Shown here in pieces: positions 50-27,829 of a stretch of DNA of 34,561 bases. Origin of the DNA: a virus. A program made the translations under genes and the position numbers. Below the pieces are notes generated by a model. That model made no database searches and was not told the origin of the DNA. It worked only from the letters and a program-made list of their open reading frames with translations. Each line of letters opens with the position of its first letter. The first letter of the stretch is position 1. Location: IMG/VR virus record IMGVR_UViG_3300042294_005224, positions 1-34,561 of that record. The stretch is one strand, 5' to 3'.

Positions 50-1231
50 TTAATTACCAAAAAATTCTTTTCTTCTTCTATTTACTTCTTGATCAAAAGC
101 TTCTTCTCCTTTTGCTTTCCAACTTAAGTAATCTTTATATTGTGCAGGAAAATTAGCTACCCATTTATTAACAGCATCATAAGCTTGTTTAATTATATGA
201 GCTGATGGATTTCGTCTAGCAATAGGAACATCAAATTGACCATCCCACCATCCCATCATGTCTCCCTCAACATCGAATCTAAATTGGTTTGGGAAGTGAA
301 CAGTTCTAATTTTTGCTCCTGTTTTGGCTTTTAAATCTTGGGCCATTTTTTCAAAGTCATCAAACATTTCTGCTCTTGTAGGAAGATTTTCAACTTCATT
401 TAAACTTTCATTTTTCTTTAAAAAAGCAGCTACTTCTGCTGGATCTGCTGATTCAAATTCGGGTTCATCATCATATGAACCTATTTCGTCTTGGTTTCTA
501 GTATTGTCCCACACCACATACATGTCTTCACCTCCTTCATCGGTTTGATCATAGTGAACAACAGCATAGTTACCAACTACTAATGTAGCTTCTTCTGTGT
601 CTGGAGATGTTTCGAAATCAGGTAATGCTGCGATTTGTGATGTTAAATCTTCGTTTAATTTAGATTCATTCATACCCTTACCAGTTATAACAACTGGAGT
701 GTTTGGGGCAATTATTTTCATTTCTTCATCTGATACTAAATCTGCTATTCTAGCATTTTCAGAGGCTACTAAATCTTCTAAATCTAAATCTAAAGCTTTA
801 TTATAAAGAGATCTTACTTTAGGATTTTTTTGACCGTTTATACTAATTCCATAAAAGGGATTTGATGGTATAACTATTCCTTCCTTATTTGTAGTTTGAA
901 TCAATAAAGCATTGCCTGCCCAAGCTTTACCCCATTCCGCATCATCTGCTTTAACCTGAACAAACATGCCTTTTTTCTTATTTTTATTAACATTCATATC
1001 ATCCCACAAATAATCAAGAGATATTCTAATATCTGATTTAGGGACACCTAATTTATTAGCAACCATTGAAATGGTTTCTTCTAGTTCATTAGCTATTTTA
1101 TCATATAGAGTTACTTCTTCAGGTGTTTTTCGATATGGGTATATATCTGCTGCTTCATTTAAACGAGATTGAAAAGTAATTTTATTTTCAATCAACCATT
1201 GTTTTGCGTCAAAATTGTCTGCTTTTTTCAT
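50..1231 (-). CDS. Hypothetical phage protein with capsid-targeting-like leader
   Basis: 393 aa with no family recognised. The first 26 residues (MKKADNFDAKQWLIENK, then ITFQSRLNE, followed by AAD) are almost identical to the start of the neighbouring 181-aa protein, while the rest is unrelated. The leader ends in LNE|A, which fits the T4 prohead protease (gp21) cleavage consensus (L/I)-x-E|(A/G/S). By analogy with the T4 capsid-targeting sequence of internal head proteins, I infer that the leader directs the protein into the prohead and is then removed. Two further LNE tripeptides lie at residues 192-194 and 277-279, both in acidic, linker-like stretches, so the protein could be cut into several pieces. 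There is no signal peptide or membrane segment. It is the third gene of a tight run starting at 2340. Confidence 0.75.
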   Translation of the reverse strand: MKKADNFDAKQWLIENKITFQSRLNEAADIYPYRKTPEEVTLYDKIANELEETISMVANKLGVPKSDIRISLDYLWDDMNVNKNKKKGMFVQVKADDAEWGKAWAGNALLIQTTNKEGIVIPSNPFYGISINGQKNPKVRSLYNKALDLDLEDLVASENARIADLVSDEEMKIIAPNTPVVITGKGMNESKLNEDLTSQIAALPDFETSPDTEEATLVVGNYAVVHYDQTDEGGEDMYVVWDNTRNQDEIGSYDDEPEFESADPAEVAAFLKKNESLNEVENLPTRAEMFDDFEKMAQDLKAKTGAKIRTVHFPNQFRFDVEGDMMGWWDGQFDVPIARRNPSAHIIKQAYDAVNKWVANFPAQYKDYLSWKAKGEEAFDQEVNRRRKEFFGN

Positions 1232-1240
1232 TTTATTTTT

Positions 1241-1786
1241 TTATTTAAAAGAGTTTGGTGTTAATTTGTCTTTAATATTTTCAAAAGATGTATTTAAATC
1301 ATCTTTCCACTCGGATTGTCCTAATAAGTAATTTATAAACTTAGTAGCTTCACCACTGTCAGGTATAGTACCTACTTCTTCATTTGATGTTGAAGAGTTA
1401 TTTAATATAAAATTATCGCCTTTTAATTTTATTTGTATTGTTGCTTCTTTACCATCAGAAACTTTGGTAAAAACAAATTTAATAGTAGGACTACTACTAA
1501 ACATGCCGGAGAAAAATCCTTCTTTTACTTTTGGTTTTTCAAATATTACATCTTTAAGTTTATAGTTGTAATTAGCATATCTTTTATACATTGGATTAAC
1601 TAATACAGATAAACTAAATTCATCTGGTTTAGATGAAGCCTCTTCTCCTGATGGGTTTTTGATATTTTTAGTAGCAGCAGCAACTGCCCCCATTTGCCCT
1701 GCTAGGGCCTCATTTAGGCGAGATTGAGTAGTGATTTTATTTTCTACTAACCATTTACCAGGGTTGAAGTTGTCTGCTTTTTTCAT
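1241..1786 (-). CDS. Hypothetical phage protein with capsid-targeting-like leader (second copy)
   Basis: 181 aa. The leader MKKADNFNPGKWLVENK then ITTQSRLNE|A matches that of the next gene in about 20 of 26 positions and ends at the same prohead-protease-like site (LNE at residues 24-26, Ala at 27). After the cut site there is a small Ala/Gly-rich stretch, a low-complexity linker (residues ~40-60), then a domain of about 120 residues that I do not recognise, with alternating lysine-rich and hydrophobic strands. The start overlaps the stop of the upstream gene by 1 nt (TAATG), which suggests translational coupling. The likely role, packaging into the head as an internal or decoration protein, is inferred only from the leader. 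Confidence 0.75.
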   Translation of the reverse strand: MKKADNFNPGKWLVENKITTQSRLNEALAGQMGAVAAATKNIKNPSGEEASSKPDEFSLSVLVNPMYKRYANYNYKLKDVIFEKPKVKEGFFSGMFSSSPTIKFVFTKVSDGKEATIQIKLKGDNFILNNSSTSNEEVGTIPDSGEATKFINYLLGQSEWKDDLNTSFENIKDKLTPNSFK

Positions 1787-6698: not shown

Positions 6699-7490
6699 TT
6701 AAAATGTGATTCCTTTAATTTTATTACCTTTAGGCCTATGGCTGTTGTTTTCAAATAATTGAGGCACAATCCCCCATTTATACATAAATACATGAGCTGC
6801 TGGACTTTCTGTTTGTTTAAATTTATCTCCTTCTTTACCATTTTTAGTAGCAGCACTACCAAAGTGATAAAAATGAAGATTATGAGTACGAATAAAACCT
6901 ATTCCATTTAAATCTAATTTTAAAAAGAAATCCCAATCACAAATAAAGGGTGATTGATACATAGTATCGAAGCCACCTACAACCATATAGTTTTTCTTAC
7001 TAATAACAAATGGAAAAATACCTCCATCTAATGTTATTGATTCTTTTCTAATGGTAAGTTCGTAATCAATAAAGTCTTCATACTTAAATTCACTTGGTGA
7101 TTTACCAAAATCTTTTACAGGAAAATTAAATATACCTGGTCCTGTAGGTTCAATTTGATTTATTGTTAGTACTGAATTTGGGTGATATAGTTTTTCAATA
7201 ATAATGTCCCAATTTTTAGATAAAACATTATCATCATTGATAATACATATAATTTCATTAGTGGCATTCATAACAGCTAAATTAAGTGCTGTTTGCATAC
7301 CTTGGTTTTCACCTAAATCTAATACCTGAATGTTAGATTTGTATTTATCTAATATTGTTTGGCTTTCTTCTATAAAACCATCTACTGCTACAATAATTTC
7401 ATTTTTATTTACTTGGTTTTCAATAGCTGATTTAAGACAAATATCTAAATATTCTGGATTTCTGTAGGTTGGTATAATTAAACTAATCAT
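6699..7490 (-). CDS. GT2 family glycosyltransferase
   Basis: 263 aa. The GT-A fold is clear: MISLIIPTYRNPEYLDICLK at the N-terminus, VAVDG at 34-38 (nucleotide-binding Asp), and the metal-binding DxD equivalent NDDNVLSKNW at 85-94. GT2 enzymes transfer a sugar from an NDP-sugar to an acceptor with inversion. There is no membrane segment, so it should act in the cytoplasm. It is the last gene of the long modification island and overlaps the preceding gene by 4 nt. Donor and acceptor cannot be told from the sequence. Confidence 0.88.
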   Translation of the reverse strand: MISLIIPTYRNPEYLDICLKSAIENQVNKNEIIVAVDGFIEESQTILDKYKSNIQVLDLGENQGMQTALNLAVMNATNEIICIINDDNVLSKNWDIIIEKLYHPNSVLTINQIEPTGPGIFNFPVKDFGKSPSEFKYEDFIDYELTIRKESITLDGGIFPFVISKKNYMVVGGFDTMYQSPFICDWDFFLKLDLNGIGFIRTHNLHFYHFGSAATKNGKEGDKFKQTESPAAHVFMYKWGIVPQLFENNSHRPKGNKIKGITF

Positions 7491-8164
7491 ATTTTATTCC
7501 AATTAATAGTTGGTGAAAGTAAGGTTTCCATACAGTGTGTTGATAATCCAGGAATAGGAGTGAAAACAAATCTGTTTTTAGTTTCATTTAGATTAATAAA
7601 AGTATTATGATCTCCTACGGCTGTTGACCAAACATCATAATCGTCTTCGAATATTTTTCTTGTAATAATATAACTTCCACAAGTACTTGGAGTTGTTCTC
7701 CAATGATGATTTTCAGTAACTATAATTTTAGATACTAAATCATCATATCTAGAATCAATGTACTTATCATTATGATCATACAAAGAAACATAGTCTAATC
7801 CTGAATATGTTTTGAATAGAGTCATAATTTTATCAACCCATCCATTAATATGTAAATAATCATTTTCTAACCAATAAATTAAATCATTTGGTTCCATTGG
7901 TTGATTTTTAACATGTTCTAATAAATCTCTCCAAGACAATAAACTAGATTTATGGTTGGTTTGAAACAAAGTATACTTATCTTTGTAATTATATGTAAAA
8001 TCCTCAGATAATTCTCCATCCATAGCTAATGTTAAATTAACATTGTCGTATCCGTCTATGGTTTCAAGTAAGTTTTTAAAACATTTTTCATAACTAAACC
8101 AATAAGGTCTAGCTTTACCTATAATATTGCTAGAGGTATGTCTATAATAAATGTTAATATTCAT
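7487..8164 (-). CDS. Putative glycosyltransferase-like protein (GT-A-like)
   Basis: 225 aa, with no confident family. Features suggesting a GT-A-like fold are a central acidic motif after a hydrophobic strand (LIYWLENDYLHINGW, residues ~94-108) in the place of a DxD loop, a CGSYIITRKIF stretch, and PIPGLSTHCMETLLSP near the end, which resembles acceptor-side loops of phage glycosyltransferases. It lies between a GT2 and an acetyltransferase-methyltransferase, each overlapping or within 4 nt, which supports a glycan role. It could instead be an unrelated nucleotide-diphospho-sugar-fold protein. Confidence 0.55.
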   Translation of the reverse strand: MNINIYYRHTSSNIIGKARPYWFSYEKCFKNLLETIDGYDNVNLTLAMDGELSEDFTYNYKDKYTLFQTNHKSSLLSWRDLLEHVKNQPMEPNDLIYWLENDYLHINGWVDKIMTLFKTYSGLDYVSLYDHNDKYIDSRYDDLVSKIIVTENHHWRTTPSTCGSYIITRKIFEDDYDVWSTAVGDHNTFINLNETKNRFVFTPIPGLSTHCMETLLSPTINWNKI

Positions 8165-8168
8165 TTTA

Positions 8169-9335
8169 TTATTTTTTACAAATCAACATAATGCTTGAAC
8201 ATAAATCAGGATATTGTTGTCCTAATTTAAAACAACCATCTAAATATTCTTTAGAGATAATATCTGTTTGTAAAAGCTTATCCCACTGGAAATTAGCTAA
8301 TGATTTAAAAAATATTCCGGAACGATAAACAACCTTTAATTCCCCCTCAGTAGCATCTCTTTCTAAAGTATCTAAAGTGTAAGTAATTCTATGTCCGTGT
8401 TCTAGTTCTGATGGTGTGATTGCTGAATTATGGGTTATTAGTCCCATTTTGACAGCGATTTGTCTTGAGGGTGCATTAGCATTAGGGCACACTAGAAATA
8501 AATTACCATCTTCAGTTAACCATTCATCTTTGATCTTTTTTAATAGTCCAACAGGATTATCAATATGTTCTAAAACATGAGTTAAAATAATATTATTATA
8601 TTTTTTAGGCAAAACAGTATCTTCAAATAATGAATTGTAATAACTAATATTACCCTTTAAAGTTTGTTTTGCTTCTTCAATAGCTGTATTTGATGCTTCT
8701 ACACAAGTAATATCATCAAAATATGGTAATAATCTTTTTGTAAAATCGCCTTTAAAACTACCTAATTCTAATACATCACTGCCCTTAAAAAACGGTTTAA
8801 AGGATTCAATCATATAATGATGTATAACATCAAAATCAAAATTGTAAGCATATTTGTGATCTGCTGTATCTTGAAATTCTTTATTATAATCTCTTTGTGT
8901 TTTTAATTCCATAACTAAATTACTTTTTATTTTACTTGTTTGTTTAAAATTATGTTTTTGATAAAAATTTATTGCTTTTGTATTATTTGTATTTACGTGT
9001 AAAGTTACTTCAAAATAATGATTTTCCTTTAAATATCCAACACAAGCTAATAATAAGTTTTTAGCTATTTTATTACCTTGAAAATCAGGATCTACACTAA
9101 CATTTGTTATAAAACTTGTTTTTTCTTGTTCGTCAACATATAATGCTATTAATCCTATTAAATTGATATTATCATATGCTTCGAATCTAATTCCAAAATC
9201 AAATATTTTTTGAGAATATTTACTTATATCTACATATGAATCTAATGAGGGAACAAAACTATTACTACAACGATGAAGGTGTTTTTTAATATCCTCTAAA
9301 GTGGATGTGTTTATTTTATAAGTAATATTACTCAT
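8169..9335 (-). CDS. GNAT acetyltransferase fused to class I SAM methyltransferase
   Basis: 388 aa with two domains. Residues ~1-145 form a GNAT N-acetyltransferase: NVSVDPDFQGNKIAKNLL (78-95) is motif A, which binds acetyl-CoA pyrophosphate, and NTKAINFYQKHNFKQ (118-132) is motif B. Residues ~165-388 are a Methyltransf_11/23-like domain: VLELGSFKGD (188-197) binds SAM, and LTHVLEHIDNP (252-262) is the post-motif. Together they would acetylate an amine and methylate a hydroxyl or carboxyl on the same or related molecule. Neighbouring WbqC-like and DegT aminotransferase genes make an amino sugar an obvious candidate acceptor. Both domains look complete. Confidence 0.85.
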   Translation of the reverse strand: MSNITYKINTSTLEDIKKHLHRCSNSFVPSLDSYVDISKYSQKIFDFGIRFEAYDNINLIGLIALYVDEQEKTSFITNVSVDPDFQGNKIAKNLLLACVGYLKENHYFEVTLHVNTNNTKAINFYQKHNFKQTSKIKSNLVMELKTQRDYNKEFQDTADHKYAYNFDFDVIHHYMIESFKPFFKGSDVLELGSFKGDFTKRLLPYFDDITCVEASNTAIEEAKQTLKGNISYYNSLFEDTVLPKKYNNIILTHVLEHIDNPVGLLKKIKDEWLTEDGNLFLVCPNANAPSRQIAVKMGLITHNSAITPSELEHGHRITYTLDTLERDATEGELKVVYRSGIFFKSLANFQWDKLLQTDIISKEYLDGCFKLGQQYPDLCSSIMLICKK

Positions 9336-10293
9336 CTTCTAAAACTGCTAATCCAAACCCATATTTACCAAAATCATTTCCATTATACAACATATAATGT
9401 TTTCCATCTAATTCAAAAACATGGGGGTAATGATGCATTGTACTGTCCCATCCTTCTTTAGAATATTCAATACCGGCATTTTCGTCATCACGAGTCCAAT
9501 TAATTAGATCATCTGAATAGGCATATCCTATTTTATATCCTCTTTCTGGTGTTGTTCTAAAATCAAAACCATGTCTATAAACAAAGTACATATGGTATTT
9601 ACCATCTTTATAAAATACATCAGGACCTGCTTGACATTCATACTGATCTAGTTTATCAGGAATAATATTAAAATTTAATCTATTCCATGTTATTCCGTCT
9701 TTTGAAATAGCCATTCTGTTCTTATATATTATTTCAGGTTTTTCATCATAAAGTATCCACTCAGTACCTGCCAAATAAAATAAGTAATAAGTATCATTAA
9801 ACTTTCTAATTTTAGGACCACTTAATACAAATGGTTCTTCAAAATTAGCAGCTAACATAGGACCATTACCTACTCTTTCAAAAGTAATCCCATCATTTTC
9901 ACTTATTGCTAATCCAATAGCTGTATCGAATGGAACTGATTTCATTCTAGTCCAACCAGCATAATACAAATAAACCATTCCTTCTTCCTTTATCACTGAA
10001 GTTGGGTAAACGGCAAATTCATCAAAGGTACCTAATTTACCTAAGGGTAATACGGGTTGTTTAGCAATGTTAATTATTCTTGTTAAATCATGTCTATCAA
10101 CGTCTATAAATGCGGTGTATGATTTAGCATATCCTTCATCATCCTTATAAGGACGACATGAAAAATAAATTCTAACAAACTTATCAAAAACTAAAGTGCT
10201 AGTACATTGTGAAAATTCTTTCATCCACTCTCTTTCAATCCCATCATTAGTTTTTGTTGGATCAAAAATATGTCCTAATTTTTTCCATTTCAT
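9328..10293 (-). CDS. GH43/GH130-like five-bladed beta-propeller, glycosidase-like
   Basis: 321 aa. Repeated blade patterns (VRIYFSCR, YLYYAGW, YYLFYLAGTEW, YHMYFVYRH, HYMLYNGND) are characteristic of the Glyco_hydro 43/32/130 propeller superfamily. DEFAVYPTSV (91-100) and EEPFVLSGPKI (152-162) resemble motif regions of the glycosidase-like proteins found in bacterial LPS and capsule loci. There is no signal peptide, so it is cytoplasmic. The intracellular location and its place beside WbqC and glycosyltransferases suggest sugar phosphorolysis, trimming or transfer rather than digestion of external polysaccharide. Overlaps of 4 and 8 nt tie it to both neighbours. Confidence 0.75.
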   Translation of the reverse strand: MKWKKLGHIFDPTKTNDGIEREWMKEFSQCTSTLVFDKFVRIYFSCRPYKDDEGYAKSYTAFIDVDRHDLTRIINIAKQPVLPLGKLGTFDEFAVYPTSVIKEEGMVYLYYAGWTRMKSVPFDTAIGLAISENDGITFERVGNGPMLAANFEEPFVLSGPKIRKFNDTYYLFYLAGTEWILYDEKPEIIYKNRMAISKDGITWNRLNFNIIPDKLDQYECQAGPDVFYKDGKYHMYFVYRHGFDFRTTPERGYKIGYAYSDDLINWTRDDENAGIEYSKEGWDSTMHHYPHVFELDGKHYMLYNGNDFGKYGFGLAVLEDE

Positions 10294-10997
10294 ATAAGAG
10301 TATAACTGTTTAAATAATTTTTAATTTCTTCAGATGAATTAAACATCATTACATCAATAATTGATAACCAAGGAATAAATTCATTATTAAATTGGGTATA
10401 TTTAATTTTTTCTGATTTAATAAAGTTTAGATTAATATTTTTTTCTTTAAATGTTTCTTTATTATATAATTCTGTTCCCCCTATAGCATTTATATATGTA
10501 GTTGCTTTTTGATATTCACATATTGCTAAAACTTTATCTTGAGACTTTAGATTATGATCAATATTAAGGGTTGATGATATTACAATAGAAGTATTTATGT
10601 TAAGATAATTGTTTATATTATATAAACTATCCAAAATAAATTCAAATAAATTGTTTTTATCATTAAATAAACAATCTTGAATTAATTCAAAAACATTTTT
10701 AAAATATGGTGCTTTTTGATATGATGATTTTAAAACATTTAATAATTTTTTTCTATCATCACCCCAAGTATTAGATATTTTTCTATCAACTATATTTAAA
10801 TAGTCTGAATCTTTTTGTAGTGGTAAAGTAAATAATTGGTCTTTATTGTTAACTAAAATACGATTTCTATTTATCCATCCTTTTTTAGTATATTGGATAT
10901 TATCATATATAACAAATTCATCAACTGAGTTTATTAATTGAAAATACCCAATATATGGAAATAAATAGGGTTGCATTATGGCTAATCTCTTAGTCAT
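10290..10997 (-). CDS. WbqC-like family protein
   Basis: 235 aa, about the usual length of the family. The diagnostic N-terminus is present: MQPYLFPYIGYFQL (8-21) and YDNIQYTKKGWINRNRI (31-47). WbqC-like proteins occur in O-antigen and other surface glycan loci, often beside DegT aminotransferases, and are thought to take part in amino-sugar modification; the reaction is not established. The gene directly follows the DegT-like gene with an 8-nt overlap. Its base composition is extreme even here: hand-counted lines give about 15-27% G+C, which suggests a separate origin from GroEL-like genes at about 37-47%. Confidence 0.88.
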   Translation of the reverse strand: MTKRLAIMQPYLFPYIGYFQLINSVDEFVIYDNIQYTKKGWINRNRILVNNKDQLFTLPLQKDSDYLNIVDRKISNTWGDDRKKLLNVLKSSYQKAPYFKNVFELIQDCLFNDKNNLFEFILDSLYNINNYLNINTSIVISSTLNIDHNLKSQDKVLAICEYQKATTYINAIGGTELYNKETFKEKNINLNFIKSEKIKYTQFNNEFIPWLSIIDVMMFNSSEEIKNYLNSYTLI

Positions 10998-11652
10998 TAG
11001 GGGAATCTACAAATAATTCTTCTCTATTGCTTTGGGTGTAGATTGGAAATTTAGATAGATCTGGGTATGGCATTTCTAGGTCTTCATTATTCTTTGGGGT
11101 TTCACCTTGATAAAACTGATTCATGAGCAATAAACCACGTGCTGCTAATTCAGGCATCATATAAAAATTCCAACCTAACATATCAAAATGGTCATCATGA
11201 TAAGAACATTCTCTACGACCTGAATATCTTGCTCTTTTAAACCACAAATAAGCATCATGGTCATCAGTTAGAATAGCTCCACCTTTTGATAATTTAAAAT
11301 GTTTATAAGGACCGGTAAAAGATATACACATATGAGTTCCTGGTTTGTACATATCATGTGTAAAACTTAGAGCTGAATCCCATACTTTAGTAGGTTCTAA
11401 TTGATAAGCACCTTTAATTGTTTTACCTTTAACTTTCCTAAATTTAACTTTAGCACCAGCATGAATAATTTCACAAGGTACTGAGGGGTATGTTCTATTA
11501 GGGATTGTAATTTCTAATCCCTTAACTTGTTCATACATTAAAGATAAAAATAAAGCATTTGATTGATTATCTACAGTTACAACATATGGCGCTCCTGTAT
11601 ATTCTGATAGTCGTTTTTCAAATTCAGCTGTTATATCATAAACGTTTTTCAT
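10990..11652 (-). CDS. Short DegT/DnrJ/EryC1 (sugar aminotransferase) family protein
   Basis: 220 aa against a usual ~370. It shows the PLP large domain of DegT enzymes: FEKRLSEYTGAPYVVTVDNQ at the N-terminus, IPNRTYPSVPCEIIHAGA (50-67), Asp92 in VWDSALSF, and the lysine loop SFTGPYKHFKLSKGGAI (111-127), where Lys117 aligns with the PLP Schiff-base lysine. The C-terminal small domain is largely missing and the protein ends soon after NFYMMPELAARGLL, which matches the acceptor-loop region. The active-site residues on this chain are kept, so it may work as a compact enzyme or need a partner for the missing part. It begins with an overlap on the GT2 gene and ends within WbqC. No frameshifted continuation was seen. 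Confidence 0.8.
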   Translation of the reverse strand: MKNVYDITAEFEKRLSEYTGAPYVVTVDNQSNALFLSLMYEQVKGLEITIPNRTYPSVPCEIIHAGAKVKFRKVKGKTIKGAYQLEPTKVWDSALSFTHDMYKPGTHMCISFTGPYKHFKLSKGGAILTDDHDAYLWFKRARYSGRRECSYHDDHFDMLGWNFYMMPELAARGLLLMNQFYQGETPKNNEDLEMPYPDLSKFPIYTQSNREELFVDSPND

Positions 11653-12257
11653 ATTGTATTATAAAATTGGTTTTGGGTTTCTTGTTTTTCTATTGTTTTC
11701 GGATGTAATAAACAAAATTCATCTTGTGGGGGTAATGTACTAAAAAGTTTATAACCATCCAATTTTTCATGAACCTTATTTATCCATTTTATTGATTTAT
11801 TATTACGATAAATTCTCCATTGGTAATCAGGGAAATTTACTCTTTCATTTTCATATCTCCAACCCCATTTCAGGATATGTTCCTCGGTGATACCACTTAC
11901 GGTATTAATCCGAGGAACTAAGTATACATCCACTTCAGGATTACTTTCTAATATGCTTGGAAGCATGTCAAGTAATTCTATTGCTGGTATTTCATCAGCA
12001 TCGATTTGGAAGATATATTCTCCTGAACAGTGTTTAGCTAATTCATTTTTATATGAAGCAAAATCTTTATTTAATGGATAAAACCAATGTTTTATTCCTC
12101 TACTAATAATAGTACTTATTACTTCTTCAGTATATTTATCTTGATCAATTTGTATTACAACTTCATATTGGGGAGATAGAGCTCTATCAGATAAATAATC
12201 TAATAAAGTTTCTAACTCCTGATGTTCATTGCAAACTGTAATTGCTATACTTATCAT
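11649..12257 (-). CDS. GT2 family glycosyltransferase, short form
   Basis: 202 aa. GT-A signatures in order: MISIAITVCNEHQELETLL at the N-terminus, VVIQIDQDKY (33-42), and the DxD motif QIDADEIP (84-91), then DYQWRIYRN (144-152) and NKVHEKLDG (160-168). The last two are typical of the SunS/TPR-type GT2 enzymes that glycosylate proteins or peptides as well as sugars. It is shorter than many GT2 proteins because it lacks a C-terminal extension. Cytoplasmic, no membrane segment. ATGA overlaps join it to the zinc-ribbon gene and the DegT-like gene. Confidence 0.88.
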   Translation of the reverse strand: MISIAITVCNEHQELETLLDYLSDRALSPQYEVVIQIDQDKYTEEVISTIISRGIKHWFYPLNKDFASYKNELAKHCSGEYIFQIDADEIPAIELLDMLPSILESNPEVDVYLVPRINTVSGITEEHILKWGWRYENERVNFPDYQWRIYRNNKSIKWINKVHEKLDGYKLFSTLPPQDEFCLLHPKTIEKQETQNQFYNTI

Positions 12258-12709
12258 TCAGGTAAAATTTCAATATATGAAAGAGCATCCATAAATTCGT
12301 TTTCAGGAAATTCTTTTAATGTAGTCATATCCATTCTCCATTCATAGTATTGTCCTTCTTTTCCTGGTATTGGATATTTGGTTTTTTCTTCTTCTGTTAC
12401 TTGAACTGCTTTTACTGCGGCCCAAGTCCATTGGTCTTTAGAAGGACCATTAGCAAATATCATCCCTTTTTCAGGTATATTAACTGTTGTAGGCATCCAT
12501 ACTTGATTATTATCATCTGTATAAAGTAAATCTTTATATAATTCAGGAAGTACTTCAAGTTGTCTTTCATAGAATGATTCTCCTTTTTTCATTAAAGAAT
12601 TAGTTTGAAAACCACATCCATAACAAAAATAAGTTTTAATATCCTGATTTACTTCATCTACATAACAAGCATCAGAACCGCATTTTGAACATATTATTAA
12701 ATTATCCAT
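12254..12709 (-). CDS. Zinc-ribbon phage protein, unknown function
   Basis: 151 aa. The N-terminus has C7xxC10 and C29xxC32 (ICSKCGSDA ... YFCYGCGFQTN), a zinc ribbon of the type that binds nucleic acid or protein. The remainder (SFYERQLEVLPELYKDLLY, then WMPTTVNIPEKGMIF) matches, from memory, a conserved protein of T4-like marine phages without known function. It is unusual among the glycosyltransferases around it and may be an unrelated core gene, since both neighbours overlap or nearly touch it. Confidence 0.72.
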   Translation of the reverse strand: MDNLIICSKCGSDACYVDEVNQDIKTYFCYGCGFQTNSLMKKGESFYERQLEVLPELYKDLLYTDDNNQVWMPTTVNIPEKGMIFANGPSKDQWTWAAVKAVQVTEEEKTKYPIPGKEGQYYEWRMDMTTLKEFPENEFMDALSYIEILPE

Positions 12710-12713
12710 TTGA

Positions 12714-14012
12714 TTATATTTTTTGTAGTTTAGGTAATTCCATTTTATTTACTTTAGGTAATTTTAATTCAACCTGTTTTGGAAACTCAGGAACATATTG
12801 AGTCAAAATTTGGTCTACTTTTTCTTTCATTTTACCCCAGCTAAACTCATCCTTAGATTTAAATGCTTGACGTTTAGCTTTATTAGTATAATTTTTATAG
12901 TTTTCAAATACATCTTTTAAATAAAAACCTATCTGTGCAAAATCCGGAGAAATCCATTGTGAATCAGGAAGCAAAAACTGGTTTTGGGTACTTGGATGAA
13001 CGGGAGTTAATTGACCTCCAATTAAATTAGTAAATTCTGGATTTAAAAAGTCCATTTGTCCTGACCATCCTGTAGTAATTAGAGGTTTTTTACTTAAAGT
13101 AAACTCAAGTAATGGACGACCAAAACCTTCACCTTTAGTTAAACTAACCATTGCTTTTACTTTAGAGTGATTATAAAGTTCATTTATTTCTTCATCACTT
13201 AATTCTCCATTGAGTAAATAAATGTTTGGAAGATTTGTTGAATTTACTGTTTTTTCAATTTTTTTAATTTTCTTTAAAATTTCTTCTCTATCAACATATG
13301 ATGAACCTACTTTAGCAGTTTTTAATATAAGGGCAGGACGATTGCTTTTATTTTTAAAAGTTTCTAAAAATGCCTTAACTAATAAACCTACATTTTTTCT
13401 ATCTTCACCTAAATCTCCATCCATCCAATGTCCTACAAACAAGTAACAAAAGTTTTCTTTAATTGAATCAAGATTAATTGATTTAATTTGGTGTGACTCA
13501 ATTACTTTAAAAATATCTGTATTAGCTCCTTCAAAAACAACTTCAACAGGTTTATTTAATTCAACAACTTCTTGAAGTTCATTAGTATTTTTATCTTTCT
13601 TTTCAAATTTAGATTCTTGAAATACCTTTTTAGAATGTTCTGAAGAAACTAGATTTAAATCCATTCTATTAATACCTTCAATCCATTCAGGAGGACAAAT
13701 TGTACTTTCAATACCTGCTGTACAACCAATATTAAATTTTCCTATAGGTTGAAATTCATTAGGTACAGTAATTTGCATCCAAATATCTGGTTGAGTGTTT
13801 TGGTGTTGGGAAGTAAGGGTGTATCCATAAAGAAAACTCCATTCAGGATTATCTTCACAAAATCCAAAAGGTGTAATACCCCAACGTTGAGATAAAAGCT
13901 TTACCTCATATTTATCTGTTTCTATAATGGCTTTAACTAAATCCCTTGCGCGAGCACCATAGCCACTATAGGTGTCAAAAGGGCAACTTATTACAAATAA
14001 CGGTTTCATCAA
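12714..14012 (-). CDS. GT4-type glycosyltransferase (GT-B fold)
   Basis: 432 aa. Residues 1-19 (PLFVISCPFDTYSGYG) contain the glycine loop of GT-B enzymes, and TKGEGFGRPLLEFTLSKKPL (292-311) is the E-x7-E nucleotide-sugar binding motif of the GT4 C-terminal domain, followed by a conserved TGWSGQMDFL. Retaining transfer from an NDP-sugar is expected. No membrane anchor. The ATGA overlap with the next GT4 gene upstream (14009-14012) suggests that the two enzymes are made together and perhaps add successive sugars to one acceptor. Confidence 0.88.
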   Translation of the reverse strand: MMKPLFVISCPFDTYSGYGARARDLVKAIIETDKYEVKLLSQRWGITPFGFCEDNPEWSFLYGYTLTSQHQNTQPDIWMQITVPNEFQPIGKFNIGCTAGIESTICPPEWIEGINRMDLNLVSSEHSKKVFQESKFEKKDKNTNELQEVVELNKPVEVVFEGANTDIFKVIESHQIKSINLDSIKENFCYLFVGHWMDGDLGEDRKNVGLLVKAFLETFKNKSNRPALILKTAKVGSSYVDREEILKKIKKIEKTVNSTNLPNIYLLNGELSDEEINELYNHSKVKAMVSLTKGEGFGRPLLEFTLSKKPLITTGWSGQMDFLNPEFTNLIGGQLTPVHPSTQNQFLLPDSQWISPDFAQIGFYLKDVFENYKNYTNKAKRQAFKSKDEFSWGKMKEKVDQILTQYVPEFPKQVELKLPKVNKMELPKLQKI

Positions 14013-15451
14013 TATAACAATTCGTGGTTTAAAACTCTATCTTTAACTTTATTAACATTTATCAATTCATATTTTTCTCTTGGTTTCCAAGTAGAAAACA
14101 ATTCATCAAAAGCTTCTATTACTCTTTTACCTTGAATTTCACCAGTAAACCCAGCTTCATTTCCTATAGCCCATTCTCTTCCTTTTAATCCTCTTTCTAT
14201 ACGTTCTGTTTTTGGTATTTGGTACAGTTCTTTAATTTTAACAGCTGCATCTTCTGCTTTACAAACATCATCCCAAATATAAGGTGTTTGGGGAGAACCT
14301 TGTAGTACTCTTGTAGATGGAAATACGGGAAATGCCCACTCACCATGTTTTGTATATGTTTTTTTATGGTTCGAAGGAACTTTTTCACTAGGAGTAAACC
14401 AATTTCCATCTTCATCTTCAAATCTCATTTGATCTTGCATTCCACCAGTTACGTTAGCGATGATAGGATTACCTGCTAAAATGGCTTCTGTAATACTTAA
14501 TCCCCAACCTTCATTAGATGTTAATAAAATTTGAGCATCTGAACTATTATAAAGTAGATTCATTTGTTCTGGAGTAAGCTGAGTGATTAAGTCAGTAAAT
14601 ATAATATTATATTTTTCATCGTTAGCAAATAACTCAATAACAGCATCTAAATCAGTACCATGTTCATTAACATGTTCTGAATGTAGAACCAAAGCACATT
14701 TTTTAGCTTCTTCAATAGATAAAGAATCTATAAAATACTTGTAAGCTAAAATAGTATCTGAGATACGTTTTCTTTGTATGTTTCTTGAATTAAATAATAA
14801 TACAAAGTCATATTCTTTACCTTTAAACAAATGTTTTTGAAATTCTTTTAAATTAGGATCATTTTTATCCATTGGTCTAAAAATTTCATGATTTAATCCA
14901 TGAGGAACATATTTAATAATTTTACTATTAGCTTTGTTACCCAATACTAACTCATTAATATTGACTGTTTGCTTTGAAATCCCCATTAATAAATCACAAG
15001 CTTCATAATATGGTTTATTATATAAAGGTGCAGGATAATTATCCCAAATATTTAAATAAGTAATAGGAATATGTTTACGAATTTCATTTTCCATTTGGAA
15101 TAACCAAATAAAATAACGTGGATCGGTAATCAATAAAATAGCATCTATTTGTTCAGCTTTAATTAGATAACGAATTAAATCTTGATTTCCATACCCATCA
15201 ACAGGGTACAACGTAACTGAGGAATCTTTTAATCCTGTTATGTCATTTGTTGATTGAGACAGATCTAAACGTTTTCCATTTTCAGGATGTTTAATTGATC
15301 CACCAACGTTTACCCAATTAAAATGTTGGGCCGTATGTAGAATTATTTCTCTACCTACACCAGCAACACCAGAGGGAACTCTAATGTCGTCTGTGATTAG
15401 CATAATTTTCTTCCTCTTTTCAGGAGGAAGATAAGCAAAACTTGAATTCAT
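14009..15451 (-). CDS. GT4-type glycosyltransferase (GT-B fold)
   Basis: 480 aa. IMLITDDIRVPSGVAGVGRE (16-35) is the N-terminal Rossmann strand and glycine loop, VPHGLNHEIFRP (182-193) is the domain linker typical of GT4 enzymes, and NEGWGLSITEAILAG (313-327) is the E-x7-E donor-binding motif. It is only distantly similar to the neighbouring 432-aa GT4, so it is not a recent duplicate. Cytoplasmic. Its start follows the ribbon-helix-helix gene by 8 nt, so that small regulator may be the first gene of this transcript. Confidence 0.88.
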   Translation of the reverse strand: MNSSFAYLPPEKRKKIMLITDDIRVPSGVAGVGREIILHTAQHFNWVNVGGSIKHPENGKRLDLSQSTNDITGLKDSSVTLYPVDGYGNQDLIRYLIKAEQIDAILLITDPRYFIWLFQMENEIRKHIPITYLNIWDNYPAPLYNKPYYEACDLLMGISKQTVNINELVLGNKANSKIIKYVPHGLNHEIFRPMDKNDPNLKEFQKHLFKGKEYDFVLLFNSRNIQRKRISDTILAYKYFIDSLSIEEAKKCALVLHSEHVNEHGTDLDAVIELFANDEKYNIIFTDLITQLTPEQMNLLYNSSDAQILLTSNEGWGLSITEAILAGNPIIANVTGGMQDQMRFEDEDGNWFTPSEKVPSNHKKTYTKHGEWAFPVFPSTRVLQGSPQTPYIWDDVCKAEDAAVKIKELYQIPKTERIERGLKGREWAIGNEAGFTGEIQGKRVIEAFDELFSTWKPREKYELINVNKVKDRVLNHELLY

Positions 15452-15459
15452 ATTCTTTT

Positions 15460-15654
15460 TTAGTCGTTAATTTCTAAATTGTTGTGTGAGTGTACTTTTT
15501 TACGAAAATCTTCATCTGTAAGATACAAATGAATAGTACGATCAGCAAGTTTTTGTAAAGAAAATTTGTATTTAACACAAGCAATCTTAAAATTTTCAAA
15601 TAATTCACTCTGTACTTTTACAGAGGTTAATGTCATATCCTTTTTATTTGTCAT
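15460..15654 (-). CDS. Ribbon-helix-helix-like small protein, possible regulator
   Basis: 64 aa. MTLTSVKVQSELFENFKIAC, then SLQKLADRTIHLYL, fits the Arc/CopG/MetJ ribbon-helix-helix plan: a strand (TSVKV) followed by two helices with a polar turn. Such dimers bind operator DNA. It heads the glycosyltransferase run and could control it, but an independent role is equally possible. The 47 nt upstream have a TATTTATA-like stretch (15674-15686 region) but no TTTGG promoter. Confidence 0.6.
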   Translation of the reverse strand: MTNKKDMTLTSVKVQSELFENFKIACVKYKFSLQKLADRTIHLYLTDEDFRKKVHSHNNLEIND

Positions 15655-15701
15655 AGCTTTTATTTTATTGTCGTATATAAATATATTAGGATTCTTTAAA
15701 A

Positions 15702-16694
15702 TTATAGTTTTATCACAGAAGAATGTTCAGTTATCCACTTTTTATCTTCTTCGTTAGTTAAATCTATTTCTTTTATAAAAACATTATTTTTATATATTTT
15801 TATATTTTCTATATTTTCAAAATCTAAAGGAAACCAAAGATAATAGGGGTGAGTACATGATATATTTATGTATTGATTTTTATTAATTATAATTTCAAAA
15901 TGATTTGTACTTTTATCTTCATTATGGTTGTTATGAAAAAAGTAATATTTGTTTTCAAAAAAATGAATAGTTGTGTTTTCACCTTGTCCCTTTCCTAAAG
16001 TACTTAAATTTACTTCAAAGGAAGTTTTAAAATCTTTTTCATCTTCTAATTCAATTAAATGATAATTAGTTTTACTCCAAACATTATCAAAAACCATTCT
16101 TTCAAAAACGGGTAATTTTTCTAATTGAAAATAATTTTTATATTGGTTTTTTAATTCTTGGGGGGAAAAAGTAAGTAAATTAAAAGGTATATTTTTTACA
16201 TTAACACTTTGGATATCAAAAACACAGTTTAAAATACCTTCAGAATAACATCGAGGAAAAGAATAAAGTACAGCATCTTTTTCTTTTAATATTTCACTAT
16301 TTATGTCCCACATTTTTCTATTTTTTACAATATTATCGTGTAATATCATATGAACTATTTCTTCACCCATTGATTTTAAATAAGCTAAACCACCTAAATA
16401 TGATCTGAATATAGGGAGCATATGAGTTGCTACAGCAAAATAATCTTTAAAAAATATCTTATATTCACCAACAGTACAAAAATAAAAATATTTTATTTCA
16501 GGATCATATAGTAATTCATTTTCTTTATCATATACATAATAATCACATCTGTCTACTATGTCAGAAGGAGTAGAAGTATGGGTTACTAAACATATTCTAT
16601 AATTTAAATCTTTTAAAGATTTAATTAATTCTCGGAGGTTATCTTGGGTTGGTGTATTTGGAGTATAGGCTGATATTAACACTATTTCTTTCAT
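15702..16694 (-). CDS. Putative glycosyltransferase-like protein
   Basis: 330 aa. The N-terminal half (EIVLISAYTPNTPTQDNL, then YRICLVTHTSTPSDI, DYYVYDKENELLYDP) resembles a GT-A-like family in phages and bacteria in which a small Rossmann strand is followed by a 'DYFIYD.EN.L' motif. The second half is strand-rich with many Asn and aromatic residues (YYFFHNNHNEDKSTNHFEI) and may be a carbohydrate- or protein-binding domain. No catalytic residue can be named. It overlaps the nuclease gene by 4 nt and is followed by a 47-nt gap before the ribbon-helix-helix gene. Confidence 0.5.
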   Translation of the reverse strand: MKEIVLISAYTPNTPTQDNLRELIKSLKDLNYRICLVTHTSTPSDIVDRCDYYVYDKENELLYDPEIKYFYFCTVGEYKIFFKDYFAVATHMLPIFRSYLGGLAYLKSMGEEIVHMILHDNIVKNRKMWDINSEILKEKDAVLYSFPRCYSEGILNCVFDIQSVNVKNIPFNLLTFSPQELKNQYKNYFQLEKLPVFERMVFDNVWSKTNYHLIELEDEKDFKTSFEVNLSTLGKGQGENTTIHFFENKYYFFHNNHNEDKSTNHFEIIINKNQYINISCTHPYYLWFPLDFENIENIKIYKNNVFIKEIDLTNEEDKKWITEHSSVIKL

Positions 16695-17641
16695 ATACTT
16701 TTATCACATAATTCTTTTTTATCTTTAAAGGGACAAAACATACAATTGAATTTTGAAGGATTGGGTTCAAAGGTTTTTGTTTTATATGAACCATCATGAT
16801 TAAACACCTCTTCTATAAATGAATTAATTGTGTTTGTTGCTTTGTTTATTTTAACTTTACCACTTGCTGGTCTAAATTCTTGTATTCTGGAAATTGGGAA
16901 GGGGGATTCTTCCCATATTTTTCTTTTAACAATAAAAAATTCTACTTCAATATTATCTTCAGGAACTCCAAATTGTTGGCTGTAGTATTTTTTATATAGA
17001 ACTAATTGGAGTTGTTTTGTTTCATCTTTTTTAGTTTTATCGTCCCATCCACTTTTAGATGTTTTGATATCTAAAATTTTAAAAGTGTTAGTTGCTTCAT
17101 GATACAAAACAACATCCAAGTAGCCCTTATATAAAACAGTTCTAAATTCAGGATGTGGGTTCAATAAAATAGGAACCTCACAACCAACCAAATACCAACC
17201 TCGCTTACCAAAATAACCACCTCGTTTTTTCTTAACAAAATTTAAAATTGCTAATCCGTCTTCATAAAATTCTTTCATTTCAACAGGATTAGAAAAATGT
17301 ACTTTTTTGTTTAATTTATAGTCTTTTTGATAAGTTTCTCTAAAACGTTCTTCAAAATATTCTTCTAAATCAATTCGGTCAGCGGCAGCACCACTTTCAT
17401 TATATATAGTTGTTATATAGTGTTGTAATGCCTCATGTAAAGCAGTTCCGAATGTCATATGAATAGAGGATTCAGATGTATAATATCCGTCTCTATATTG
17501 TAAACTCCACTTATGTGGACAATTCAAAAACATAGACACTTGGCTATAAGAAATTTGTTTTTCTACAGCGTAGTTAATTTCTTTAAGAGTATGTTTTTGA
17601 ATTTGTTTTACTATTGCAGGTATTTTTTTCTTTTTAGTCAA
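16691..17641 (-). CDS. PD-(D/E)XK nuclease, Cas4/RecB-like with cysteine cluster
   Basis: 316 aa. Motifs of the RecB/Cas4 branch in order: YSQVSMFLNCPHKW with Cys41, GTALHEAL (65-72), Asp176 in GYLDVVL, ILDIKTSKSGW (189-199) as the (D/E)xK motif, and KQLQLVLYKKYY (209-220) as the Q-x-x-x-Y motif. Near the C-terminus C300xxC303 and C312, together with Cys41, give the four-cysteine pattern that holds an iron-sulphur cluster in Cas4 and AddB. It is probably a DNA exonuclease or a nuclease for recombination or host DNA breakdown. No CRISPR array or cas1/cas2 is present in the window. It lies between glycan genes without being related to them. Confidence 0.85.
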   Translation of the reverse strand: MTKKKKIPAIVKQIQKHTLKEINYAVEKQISYSQVSMFLNCPHKWSLQYRDGYYTSESSIHMTFGTALHEALQHYITTIYNESGAAADRIDLEEYFEERFRETYQKDYKLNKKVHFSNPVEMKEFYEDGLAILNFVKKKRGGYFGKRGWYLVGCEVPILLNPHPEFRTVLYKGYLDVVLYHEATNTFKILDIKTSKSGWDDKTKKDETKQLQLVLYKKYYSQQFGVPEDNIEVEFFIVKRKIWEESPFPISRIQEFRPASGKVKINKATNTINSFIEEVFNHDGSYKTKTFEPNPSKFNCMFCPFKDKKELCDKSI

Positions 17642-20955: not shown

Positions 20956-22873
<1,918 letters not shown>

Positions 22874-22874
22874 A

Positions 22875-23168
22875 TTAAATACTAATTTTTGATGAGAATG
22901 AATCAAGAGTACTGTTATACTCTTCAATGTAAGTTTTTAGTGAATCATAAGATTTACTGTTAGTTTTGTCTTTAGCAATTGATTTTAAAGCAGCAGATAA
23001 ATTACTGTAATGTCCAATAATTTTAGTGTATTCTTTACCCGAATCAGTGTAACGGGCATCAGGAATAACTCTAACATTAACTGTCATACAATTATCATCC
23101 ATTGAGATAAAATAAGGTTCCATTGCTGGATCTGTAATAAAACGTGTGTATTCTTTTTCAGTACTCAT
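22875..23168 (-). CDS. Hypothetical protein, first gene of the chaperonin operon (97 aa)
   Basis: 97 aa. EYTRFITDPAMEPYFISMDD and GHYSNLSAALKSIAKDK resemble, from memory, small proteins found in several phages and Bacteroidetes with the order 'ITDP.M.PY.I..D' and 'GHYS', function unknown. It is the first gene after the promoter at 23175-23204 and ends 1 nt before groES, so it is part of the same mRNA. The ATG lies only 6 nt after the promoter's TATATT box, so the message would be nearly leaderless. Confidence 0.68.
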   Translation of the reverse strand: MSTEKEYTRFITDPAMEPYFISMDDNCMTVNVRVIPDARYTDSGKEYTKIIGHYSNLSAALKSIAKDKTNSKSYDSLKTYIEEYNSTLDSFSSKISI

Positions 23169-25045: not shown

Positions 25046-25075
25046 AATATAATAACTTTTTATTAATTTACCAAA
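25046..25075 (-). promoter_or_regulatory. Promoter, TTTGG-N19-TATATT class (sliding clamp)
   Basis: TTTGGTAA begins at 25075 on the minus strand, and TTATTATATT ends at 25046, with exactly the spacing of the other four promoters. TATATT is followed by AAGGTT and the ATG of the clamp gene. It lies over the end of the carbamoyltransferase gene. Confidence 0.8.
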
Positions 25076-26703
25076 CTAAATATACCATAAGGAGTTACTA
25101 AATAATCTATAATTCCATTACGTAAATGTCTAAAAGCTTCACCTGGATGATTAACTATAGGTTCGTTATGAACATTAAAAGATGTATTTACTAAACAACC
25201 AAATCCTGTTTTATTTTTATATTCTTGTAATATTCTCCAAAAATATCCCTCACTTTGTCGTTTAACTATTTGAATTCTAGCTGTTTTATCTATAGGATGA
25301 ACTACTGTAGGTAATTTATCTTCCCATTCATCTTGAGTATCATATAACATAGTCATAAATTCTGCTGCGTGAGGAGATTTATCTACCTTAAATAAAATAT
25401 TAGCATCTTCTTCTAATACAGCAGGAGCAAAAGGCATAAAATCATTACGTTTTAGTTTACTATTTAAAATATCGTATGTTTCTGGGTTAGTAGCATCACA
25501 TATAATGCTTCTATTTCCTAATGCTCTAGGACCGTGTTCTGATTTTCCTTGATAAAGTCCTATAATTTTTTTATCTAATAGTAAATCAGCAACATAAGAA
25601 CAATCAAAAGGTTGAATATTATAATTTTTTAATTCTGATTTAGCTGATTCTAGGATTTCATTTTCACTGTATTCTGCTCCTAAATACATTGTGTCTACTT
25701 TTACAGGTCTAAAATTTATATGAAGTTTTTTAAGGGTTCCTAAAGCACATCCTAATGCTAGCCCCTCATCGCCCATAGGTGGAGCAACAAAAACATTTTC
25801 AACCCATTCTAAATCATTAATTTTTTTATTTAGTTTAACATTAGCAAATACACCACCAGCCAAAGCTATATTTTTAGCACTTGGGTATTTAACATGTAGT
25901 TGTTCTAAAAGTTCTAATACTTTTTCTTCTAAAATGAATTGACCTGTATATGCTATATCTTTTATTACTTCAGGACGTTTCCAATATTTACTACCTACAA
26001 TACTAAAAAAAGCATCATATAGTTCTTTATATTGTCCATGAAAATGAGGATTCGAATCTAATTCTGTTCTTAAATCATCAATTTTAATTATATTTTTCCA
26101 AGCATCATATAATTCTATCCATAATTTACCATGTCCAGCTAAACCAACAATTTTACCTTCATCTTTTAAGCGTTTAAACCCTAAAAGTTCTGTTAATCCA
26201 GCATAAAAATGTCCAAAAGATTTTCTTTGAAGATCAATTCCGTCAATATAAAACATTTCCCCATAACTGCCAAAATAATATTTAGCAACATGGTTATCTC
26301 CACCTCCATCTATAGACACAATTAATGTATCATCTTTAAATCCTGAAAGATAATAAGCTGAATAGCAATGGGCATCGTGGTGTTCTATTCTAATGTATTT
26401 TTCTAATGGGAGATCAAAACCATGGGTATCTTTTAACATATTTTTAGTAAAATTATAATCTAAAAATGTTGTAAAATAATCTATTTGATTTAAATCAATA
26501 CCATGAGTATAAATTAGTCTATTTAAAGACTGTAGAGGGTATCTAAAGAAATCTGCTTCAAAATCTTGCCAATATTTGGCTCTTGAAAATCGTTCTTCTT
26601 CAAAACAGTATTTAATATTTCCATTTTCAATATAAGCAATACCACACGAGTGCATACCACCTATAATACCTAAAATTTTGTAATTACTATTTATTAAATT
26701 CAT
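25063..26703 (-). CDS. Carbamoyltransferase, NodU/CmcH family
   Basis: 546 aa from the chosen start. Motifs in order: CFEEERFSRAKYW (33-45), HHDAHCYSAYYLSGF (108-122) with the metal-binding His, SIDGGGDN, then PPMGDEGLALGCALG, GKSEHGPRALGNRSI, MPFAPAVLEEDA and LVNTSFNVHNEPIVNHP. These cover both domains of O-carbamoyltransferases: the Kae1-like carbamoyl-adenylate site and the C-terminal acceptor domain. The enzyme makes carbamoyl-AMP from carbamoyl phosphate and transfers the carbamoyl group to a hydroxyl, usually on a sugar. I use ATG 26703 because it starts the typical 'KILGIIGG' stretch; the frame extends upstream to 26778 only inside the GT2 gene. Overlap with GT2 is 17 nt. Confidence 0.93.
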   Translation of the reverse strand: MNLINSNYKILGIIGGMHSCGIAYIENGNIKYCFEEERFSRAKYWQDFEADFFRYPLQSLNRLIYTHGIDLNQIDYFTTFLDYNFTKNMLKDTHGFDLPLEKYIRIEHHDAHCYSAYYLSGFKDDTLIVSIDGGGDNHVAKYYFGSYGEMFYIDGIDLQRKSFGHFYAGLTELLGFKRLKDEGKIVGLAGHGKLWIELYDAWKNIIKIDDLRTELDSNPHFHGQYKELYDAFFSIVGSKYWKRPEVIKDIAYTGQFILEEKVLELLEQLHVKYPSAKNIALAGGVFANVKLNKKINDLEWVENVFVAPPMGDEGLALGCALGTLKKLHINFRPVKVDTMYLGAEYSENEILESAKSELKNYNIQPFDCSYVADLLLDKKIIGLYQGKSEHGPRALGNRSIICDATNPETYDILNSKLKRNDFMPFAPAVLEEDANILFKVDKSPHAAEFMTMLYDTQDEWEDKLPTVVHPIDKTARIQIVKRQSEGYFWRILQEYKNKTGFGCLVNTSFNVHNEPIVNHPGEAFRHLRNGIIDYLVTPYGIFSLVN

Positions 26704-27829
26704 ATAATTTTTCTGTATAAAATCCGTTTGGGTGCATAAAAGTTTCATATCCTCCTCTACACCAACAATACCCCCCAAAAGCCCCTACTAATCTATCCGC
26801 TACTGTATCCCAATTTAAGTTATAGTGTTCATCATATTTAATAACAACTTCTGTTCCTAAATGATTATTTTTTAGAGTTGAAGCTATTGTTTCGATATTA
26901 TTTAAAGTTTCAGGATTTAAAGATATAATAATATCGTCAAACTTCATATTTAAATTTATATCATAATATAAATCATGATCAAAATATAATTCATTAAGTA
27001 AAGTACGTTCAAAAGGTTTTATGTCAGATTTAATGTAAAGTACTTTTCTTCTATCTTTACTCATATTAAAACTACTAATAGCTAAGTCTCTAGCCAAGTA
27101 AGAAATAGGTAAATAATATAATGAGGGAGTCATTTTATCGGGGTTATGAAGATGTGGAAATTTAGACTCAATAAATAATCTTTCCTCTTCAATAGAAGCT
27201 AATTCCTCATGACTCCAAAATGCTTTACAAAATGAATCTTTAGTGTAAACATATTTGTATAAAACTCTTGGTAAATATAACCATTTTCCTAAAGTTTCAA
27301 CATGTCTAACTATATTAATATCATTTTGATACCATTGTAATTTTCCATTATCAAATTCAGGAATAACATTATTCCAAGATCTACAAAAGGGAATAAAGTT
27401 CCAAGTAGCATTGTTTTCAAAAATTTGATGACCTCCACCACCAATCTCAACCCACTGTCCATCATGTTCTACGGTATGAGCTTCACAACTCATTCCCATT
27501 ACCTCAGGATGTTTTAAAAACATGTGGTTATAAACTTCTAATGTTTTGGGATAAGCAAAATCATCACTATCAAACATAACAATTCTTTTTCCAGTAGACA
27601 TTCTATTAGGATTATAGAATAATTCTTTTTTACGAGATTGTTCAAAGTATTTAATTCGAGGATCTTTTGAAGCTAAATCTAATAATGCTTCTTTAGCACT
27701 ATTTTCTTGTGAAAAATCATCTGTTACAACCCATTCCCAATCATCATATGTTTGATTTGTTACCTGATTGTAGAGGTATTCAACTTGGTCTCCTCGTTTA
27801 TAAAACGATGTACTTATTGTAAACTTCAT
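26687..27829 (-). CDS. GT2 family glycosyltransferase
   Basis: 380 aa. The N-terminus (MKFTISTSFYKRGDQVEYLY), the Asp pair in VVTDDFSQ (34-41) and DxD-type FDSDDFAYPKT (86-96) define a GT-A inverting enzyme. The C-terminal ~150 residues have no recognised motif and may form an acceptor domain. Cytoplasmic. It overlaps the carbamoyltransferase gene, so the added sugar may then be carbamoylated. A TAATATTTATAA element lies 13 nt before its start, suggesting that its transcription is separate from that of the polymerase gene. Confidence 0.85.
   Translation of the reverse strand: MKFTISTSFYKRGDQVEYLYNQVTNQTYDDWEWVVTDDFSQENSAKEALLDLASKDPRIKYFEQSRKKELFYNPNRMSTGKRIVMFDSDDFAYPKTLEVYNHMFLKHPEVMGMSCEAHTVEHDGQWVEIGGGGHQIFENNATWNFIPFCRSWNNVIPEFDNGKLQWYQNDINIVRHVETLGKWLYLPRVLYKYVYTKDSFCKAFWSHEELASIEEERLFIESKFPHLHNPDKMTPSLYYLPISYLARDLAISSFNMSKDRRKVLYIKSDIKPFERTLLNELYFDHDLYYDINLNMKFDDIIISLNPETLNNIETIASTLKNNHLGTEVVIKYDEHYNLNWDTVADRLVGAFGGYCWCRGGYETFMHPNGFYTEKLYEFNK

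Follow-up and report, generated by a model that had tools for sequence, protein, structure and literature searches.

Two adjacent viral genes that encode otherwise unrelated proteins of 393 and 181 amino acids begin with nearly the same 26-residue leader, and the distribution of this leader suggests that phages with this leader place a wide range of proteins in their heads and probably deliver them to the host along with the DNA. We put the probability at roughly 80% that the leader is a capsid-targeting module of the kind known from T4, much expanded and used in part on cargo polyproteins that would be cut by gp21. The window analyzed here spans an entire IMG/VR record (34,561 bases); at its left end, the two genes follow each other head to tail, both on the minus strand (Table 1). 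Residues 1-26 of the two proteins are identical at 20 of 26 positions (60 of 78 bases), with 13 identical, 7 synonymous, and 6 nonsynonymous codons, which confirmed the claim of an earlier note on this DNA that they share a 26-residue start ending in LNE and are unrelated thereafter. Past the leader, the DNA of the two genes shows 28% ungapped identity, which is chance level, and the 30 bases 5' of the start codons are dissimilar, so the shared unit is the peptide from the start codon to LNE. When the window was searched with the 393-aa protein, the sole other match was the leader of the 181-aa gene (E 6e-8).

Table 1. Coordinates of the two leader genes, their leaders, cargo modules, and linkers in the window.
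Feature	Position	Strand	Remark
393-aa gene	50..1231	minus	leader, cargo A, cargo B, and cargo C in a single reading frame
Leader of the 393-aa protein, MKKADNFDAKQWLIENKITFQSRLNE	1154..1231	minus	candidate cleavage sites LIE15↓N and LNE26↓A
Cargo module A (393-aa protein, residues 27-185)	677..1153	minus	also alone behind its own leader elsewhere
Linker GMNESKLNE (residues 186-194)	650..676	minus	protease-like site LNE↓D
Cargo module B (residues 195-273)	413..649	minus	directly after the leader in other loci
Linker NESLNE (residues 274-279)	395..412	minus	protease-like site LNE↓V
Cargo module C (residues 280-393)	53..394	minus	alone behind a leader in L102
181-aa gene	1241..1786	minus	leader and single cargo
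Leader of the 181-aa protein, MKKADNFNPGKWLVENKITTQSRLNE	1709..1786	minus	candidate sites LVE15↓N and LNE26↓A
Cargo of the 181-aa protein	1244..1708	minus	homologue in L005 has a different leader

Several other features of the window were recorded. The stop of a 184-aa gene (1786-2340, product MGTRALIGYL...) overlaps the start of the 181-aa gene, and its product is ~50 residues shorter than the 232-243-aa homologues in L003-L007. Glycosyltransferase-, methyltransferase-, and acetyltransferase-like genes stand among small phage genes at 6699-17641 (Pfam on two genes of the stretch), and the window also contains GroEL with a GroES-like gene (20956-22927) and a Nol-like carbamoyltransferase (25063-26778, PHROG E 1e-96).

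Viral contigs were searched with the 181-aa protein, an alignment of the leader, two alignments of diverged leaders, and the 393-aa protein, and several hundred loci were retrieved. The leader pattern matches 325 of the 20,265 distinct open reading frames of the fetched loci as compared to 3 after shuffling of the frames, so the leader is shared far beyond chance. The earlier note had proposed looking for it in related phages; once the leader genes of further whole genomes had been added and the set filtered, it was found on 322 proteins that fell into 111 cargo clusters (single-linkage BLAST at 1e-3), a conservative count because the largest cluster is probably over-linked. A search of 84,980 bacterial and archaeal species genomes with one leader class returned only three loci, of which two are on contigs with phage homologues and the third, without phage signs, looks like a chance match. 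Among annotated phages, the leader matched only isolates of immuto, and the full-length 393-aa and 181-aa proteins gave no match.

The leaders fall into three related classes, KWLVENKITTQSRLNE in the window, KYLAEGRLLKE or KFITEGRLLKE, and KFLVENKLTTNSKLLKE. Every leader starts with M...NF(D/N) and has (W/F/Y)(L/I)xE, which gives a common aromatic core of NF(D/N)xxx(W/F/Y)(L/I)xE. The same cargo can stand behind different leaders: in L005, a homologue of the 181-aa cargo is nearly identical past the joint, which falls at the same place, and has MDKFDLKKYLVETKATTQSRLSE as its leader instead, and module A of the 393-aa protein occurs alone behind a long leader in L130 and behind the short leader MKKADNFDLRKFITEGTLLKE or MKPADNFDLKKFITEGTLLKE (KFITEGTLLKE) in L176 and L221. 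Among 61 distinct class-I leader DNAs, which precede different cargoes, pS is 0.52, near saturation, and pN is 0.095; across the three classes pS ranges from 0.52 to 0.56, pN from 0.05 to 0.10, and pN/pS from 0.08 to 0.19, with pN somewhat lowered by the choice of leaders by pattern. With silent divergence near saturation, the leader copies are not recent DNA duplicates, and since the same cargo is also found with different leaders, it is the leader peptide itself that is selected. The leader is under purifying selection. These sequence comparisons strongly support a plug-in module on unrelated proteins as opposed to a gene family. Of the earlier proposal that a module sends varied cargo into the head, the module thus stands, with more than 100 unrelated cargoes, swapped leaders, and purifying selection behind it, and entry into the head is the part that we infer below.

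The cleavage motif of the T4 prohead protease gp21 is L/I-X-E, with no P1' rule given (PMC9026906). The first (L/I)xE of the leaders lies at the end of the core, at residue 12 or 15, and a second follows 5-14 residues downstream in 98 of 111 cargo clusters (88%) as compared to 8.7% of control cargo windows. At least two (L/I)xE motifs occur in the first 30 residues of 88-92% of leader proteins versus 11% of 2149 other genes from those genomes, an enrichment that partly reflects common ancestry because the leaders are related by descent. Class-I leaders have a fixed L/I24 and E26, and residue 25 is variable (N, I, S, K, or T). P1' of the first site is N in 73, G in 32, and another residue in 6 of the 111 cases, and P1' of the second site, which is the first cargo residue, is mostly N, E, A, or D. 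The two proteins had previously been assigned a single site, LNE↓A, under a T4 rule of (L/I)xE↓(A/G/S). The (L/I)xE portion of this rule holds, twice in nearly every leader, but the A/G/S portion does not seem to, with N or G in 105 of 111 cases at site 1 and no evident restriction at site 2, a departure that counts against the capsid-targeting reading; LNE26 is kept as one of two candidates, LVE/LIE15↓N and LNE26↓x. Head proteins in leader-bearing genomes have N-terminal (L/I/V)xE-type motifs as well, namely MKQVLIE↓T...LTE↓G in gp21, LLKE↓A in gp22, and LLE↓S, LLE↓G, LLE↓N, and VTE↓T in gp23.

In the 393-aa protein, the leader is followed by a fusion of three cargoes, with the layout leader-A-GMNESKLNE-B-NESLNE-C, in which two internal LNE motifs (residues 192-194 and 277-279) form the joints between modules. 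Module B is found directly behind a leader in L003, L005, L154, L159, and L160, in the last three of these alone, and the module C that stands alone in L102 is 69% identical. L003 reads leader-B-NESLNE-C, as though A had been excised exactly between the two LNEs. The A-B fusion was seen in the window only. Further fusions are leader-X-GGSKLNE-A in L015, leader-Y-SES(N/K)LNE-B in L143 and L150, and leader-Z-SKSKLNE(NE)-B in L148, and joints with other leader classes end in EGRLLKE (L246, L249) or ENKLTTGSRIIKE (L301). At fusion joints with at least 80% identity, (L/I/V)xE is located exactly at position -1 in 14 of 15 and within 3 residues in 15 of 15, where ~1 would be expected, and at joints with at least 60% identity, which include older fusions, it is exactly at the joint in 19 of 23. 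The joints retain the second half of the leader, with its LxE, and the aromatic first half is absent. In the T4 capsid-targeting sequence (CTS), residues 4 and 7 serve targeting and residues 8 and 10 serve processing (PMC9026906), and since targeting and processing residues are divided in this way, the leader halves here are split as a polyprotein would need, with one targeting end and several cut sites.

AlphaFold models of both window proteins have a mean pLDDT of 54-55, so only the domain and linker layout is usable, and a Foldseek search with both models found no match at E up to 0.001. In the low-confidence model of the 393-aa protein the weakest stretches, among a few others, are residues 1-35, 175-221, and 275-284, which correspond to the leader and the two joints; the 181-aa cargo is mostly beta in its likewise low-confidence model. 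On balance we favor a payload polyprotein, in which one capsid-targeting peptide would import several cargoes and the prohead protease would separate them in the head at half-leader linkers, allowing phages to trade and stack injected effectors as modules. A limited literature search found no description of polyproteins whose cargoes are separated by a prohead protease.

The window is a 34.5-kb fragment in which gp21, gp23, and other head genes are not present, and its link to the head therefore rests on relatives. Peptidase_S77 (gp21) is encoded by 14 of 16 leader-bearing contigs, and Gp23 by the same 14. All leader-bearing contigs above 103 kb encode both, and the two that do not are 98.8 and 102.2 kb in length and possibly incomplete. 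A 268-kb contig (L004/G002) with gp21 and gp23 encodes a protein 89% identical to the 181-aa protein. On this contig of 268,739 bases, gp21 and gp23 each occur twice, near 31-35 kb and 233-238 kb, with the two gp23 genes unlike each other, and the contig may be chimeric, assembled from two phages. In G025, a pair of leader genes lies directly between gp21 and gp22/gp23, and the cultured Flavobacterium phage vB_FspM_immuto (host Flavobacterium sp. LMO8) has two leader genes ahead of its terminase, portal, protease, and capsid genes. The leader proteins of immuto include gp003, gp076, gp077, and gp092, and its gp21 homologue is gp070. G020, G021, and G022 have three to six leader genes in a row. 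Most leader genes are located outside the head cluster, either scattered or in arrays some 10-35 kb away. At the level of sequence, the tie between the leader and a T4-type prohead protease is well supported.

From these patterns we infer how docking, cutting, packaging, injection, and cargo action would follow one another. Through the aromatic N-terminal half of its leader (NFxxxxW), the protein would bind the scaffold or core of a prohead under assembly. Cleavage after (L/I)xE by a gp21-type prohead protease, at LVE15 and/or LNE26, would then release the cargo within the head. The 393-aa protein would be imported as one chain and then cut into A, B, and C. The freed cargo would enter the next host together with the DNA.

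An unlikely alternative, although one that suits both the position of the two G025 genes between gp21 and gp22 and the small cargoes that make up most of the set, is that the leader proteins belong to the scaffold or core, as gp67 and gp68 do in T4, and are consumed in head assembly as opposed to being delivered to the host. However, the cargo is hypervariable among near relatives, unlike core proteins, several leader genes stand in arrays, and one leader protein is an enzyme. Less likely again is an uncut docking tag for another part of the virion (tail, baseplate, or outer capsid surface) or for a phage structure inside the cell, with the (L/I)xE motifs serving as helix caps. The variable P2 between invariant L/I and E at two sites, the internal joints that retain LxE and drop the aromatic half, the co-occurrence with gp21, and the G025 gene order all argue against such a tag, while the short helices predicted with low confidence at residues 9-15 and 20-24 and the location of most leader genes away from the head cluster would fit it. 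We find it very improbable that the leader is a DNA patch shared for gene swapping by homologous recombination and the internal LNE a trace of the fusion point, since the pN and pS values across cargoes point to selection on the peptide and not just the DNA, the bases upstream of the two window start codons are dissimilar, and the older fusions keep the site, even though fusion joints fall at the end of the leader and the gene after the 181-aa gene varies from contig to contig. The internal LNE sites could nevertheless be recombination scars and not working cleavage sites, and recombination may be a route to new cargo, which is compatible with the capsid-targeting reading.

Pfam and PHROG searches of 133 leader proteins gave scattered matches only; most cargoes are small and without a recognizable domain, and no domain was found in the 393-aa and 181-aa proteins with Pfam and PHROGs. 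The sole clear match is a zeta-toxin-type P-loop kinase domain in the leader protein at L271:2998-3819 (E 5.5e-15, above the cut-off). PADLOC matches among the 133 were weak (best E 3e-4), and none was believed, nor was a PARP-like match on L222 (E 0.004), which was below the cut-off and had no solved-structure match. The gene after the 181-aa gene differs among relatives, where it is A-B-C, B-C, B-D, a 77-aa leader protein, or no leader gene, and this fits fast-changing cargo. IPI of T4 inhibits a type IV restriction enzyme, and IPIII is required to infect one E. coli strain (PMC9391042); by analogy with these proteins, counter-defence would be the likeliest role of the cargo, and it is among proteins injected in the first wave that anti-defence functions are to be expected. 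If the capsid-targeting reading is correct, a peptide pattern readable from sequence alone would mark likely injected proteins in many uncultivated T4-like phages, and the cargo clusters, at least 111 and nearly all unannotated, would be a ready screening list. The leader might also be usable as a protein-packaging tag for Flavobacterium phages, and cargo polyproteins would represent a new mode of head loading.

Other leader-like starts were observed along the way. One type, MENNFDIHKWQAKFLKE / MRDFNIHNWQAKYLKE, is present on small proteins at L025:14242-14469 (immuto gp069), L313, L319, L355, and L374, and lies directly 3' of gp21 in immuto and G024. A helical type, MKKSELKKIIKEEISKVLSE or MKKSEIIKAVQEVLAE, is found on unrelated small proteins (L253, L347, L227, L412) and in the head cluster of G024, G025, and immuto. 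A start resembling it (MQKSKLQxIxKEEI) precedes module D in L006/L007, and D is fused after B in L005. The 520-aa protein at L459:3899-5461 contains two leader-like stretches in tandem, NFDIHAWNRERYLGKA and NDFDLREWNKKRYLGELN; its contig is binned as Woesearchaeota, yet has phage homologues.

A limited literature search for capsid-targeting leaders of cyanophages and of phages of Bacteroidota yielded nothing beyond reviews, and the paper on Flavobacterium LMO8 phages mentions neither mass spectrometry nor immuto. The closest known system is the CTS of T4 IPI, IPII, IPIII, and Alt, also a short N-terminal leader on otherwise unrelated proteins with aromatics followed by (L/I)xE, in phages with gp21 and gp23. 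The start of IPII and IPIII, MKTYQEFIAE↓A, shows by eye the same pattern of aromatics and (L/I)xE as the leaders here, but is too short for statistics. Unlike the T4 sequence, the leaders here are longer (12-26 residues), mostly have two tandem (L/I)xE, and differ in sequence (NFDLRKYLAE, KWLVENKITTQSRLNE). They also precede at least 111 cargo clusters across contigs and occur on multi-cargo fusions with internal sites, for which no T4 counterpart was found in the literature consulted. In the phiKZ-like phages SPN3US, phiKZ, and 201phi2-1, head-packaged proteins have N-terminal propeptides in which a gp21 homologue cleaves after xE, in many cases at several positions (PMC5694885). These inner-body and ejection proteins share the combination of propeptide and xE sites with the leader proteins, but most of their propeptides are long, often exceeding 100 residues, and do not form a short module common to unrelated cargo. 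The N-terminal ~30 residues of P1 DarB direct the protein, and even a reporter, into the head (PMC9024508), and are likewise an N-terminal capsid-targeting sequence, although in a different type of phage. Polyvalent proteins of phages and conjugative elements, which have several domains per chain and are thought to be injected with DNA (PMC5512222), resemble the 393-aa protein as multi-module chains. Their domains are disparate and largely enzymatic, and the 393-aa and 181-aa proteins gave no Pfam or PHROG domain. Here, prohead-protease-like sites divide small modules that are also found one at a time behind the same leader.
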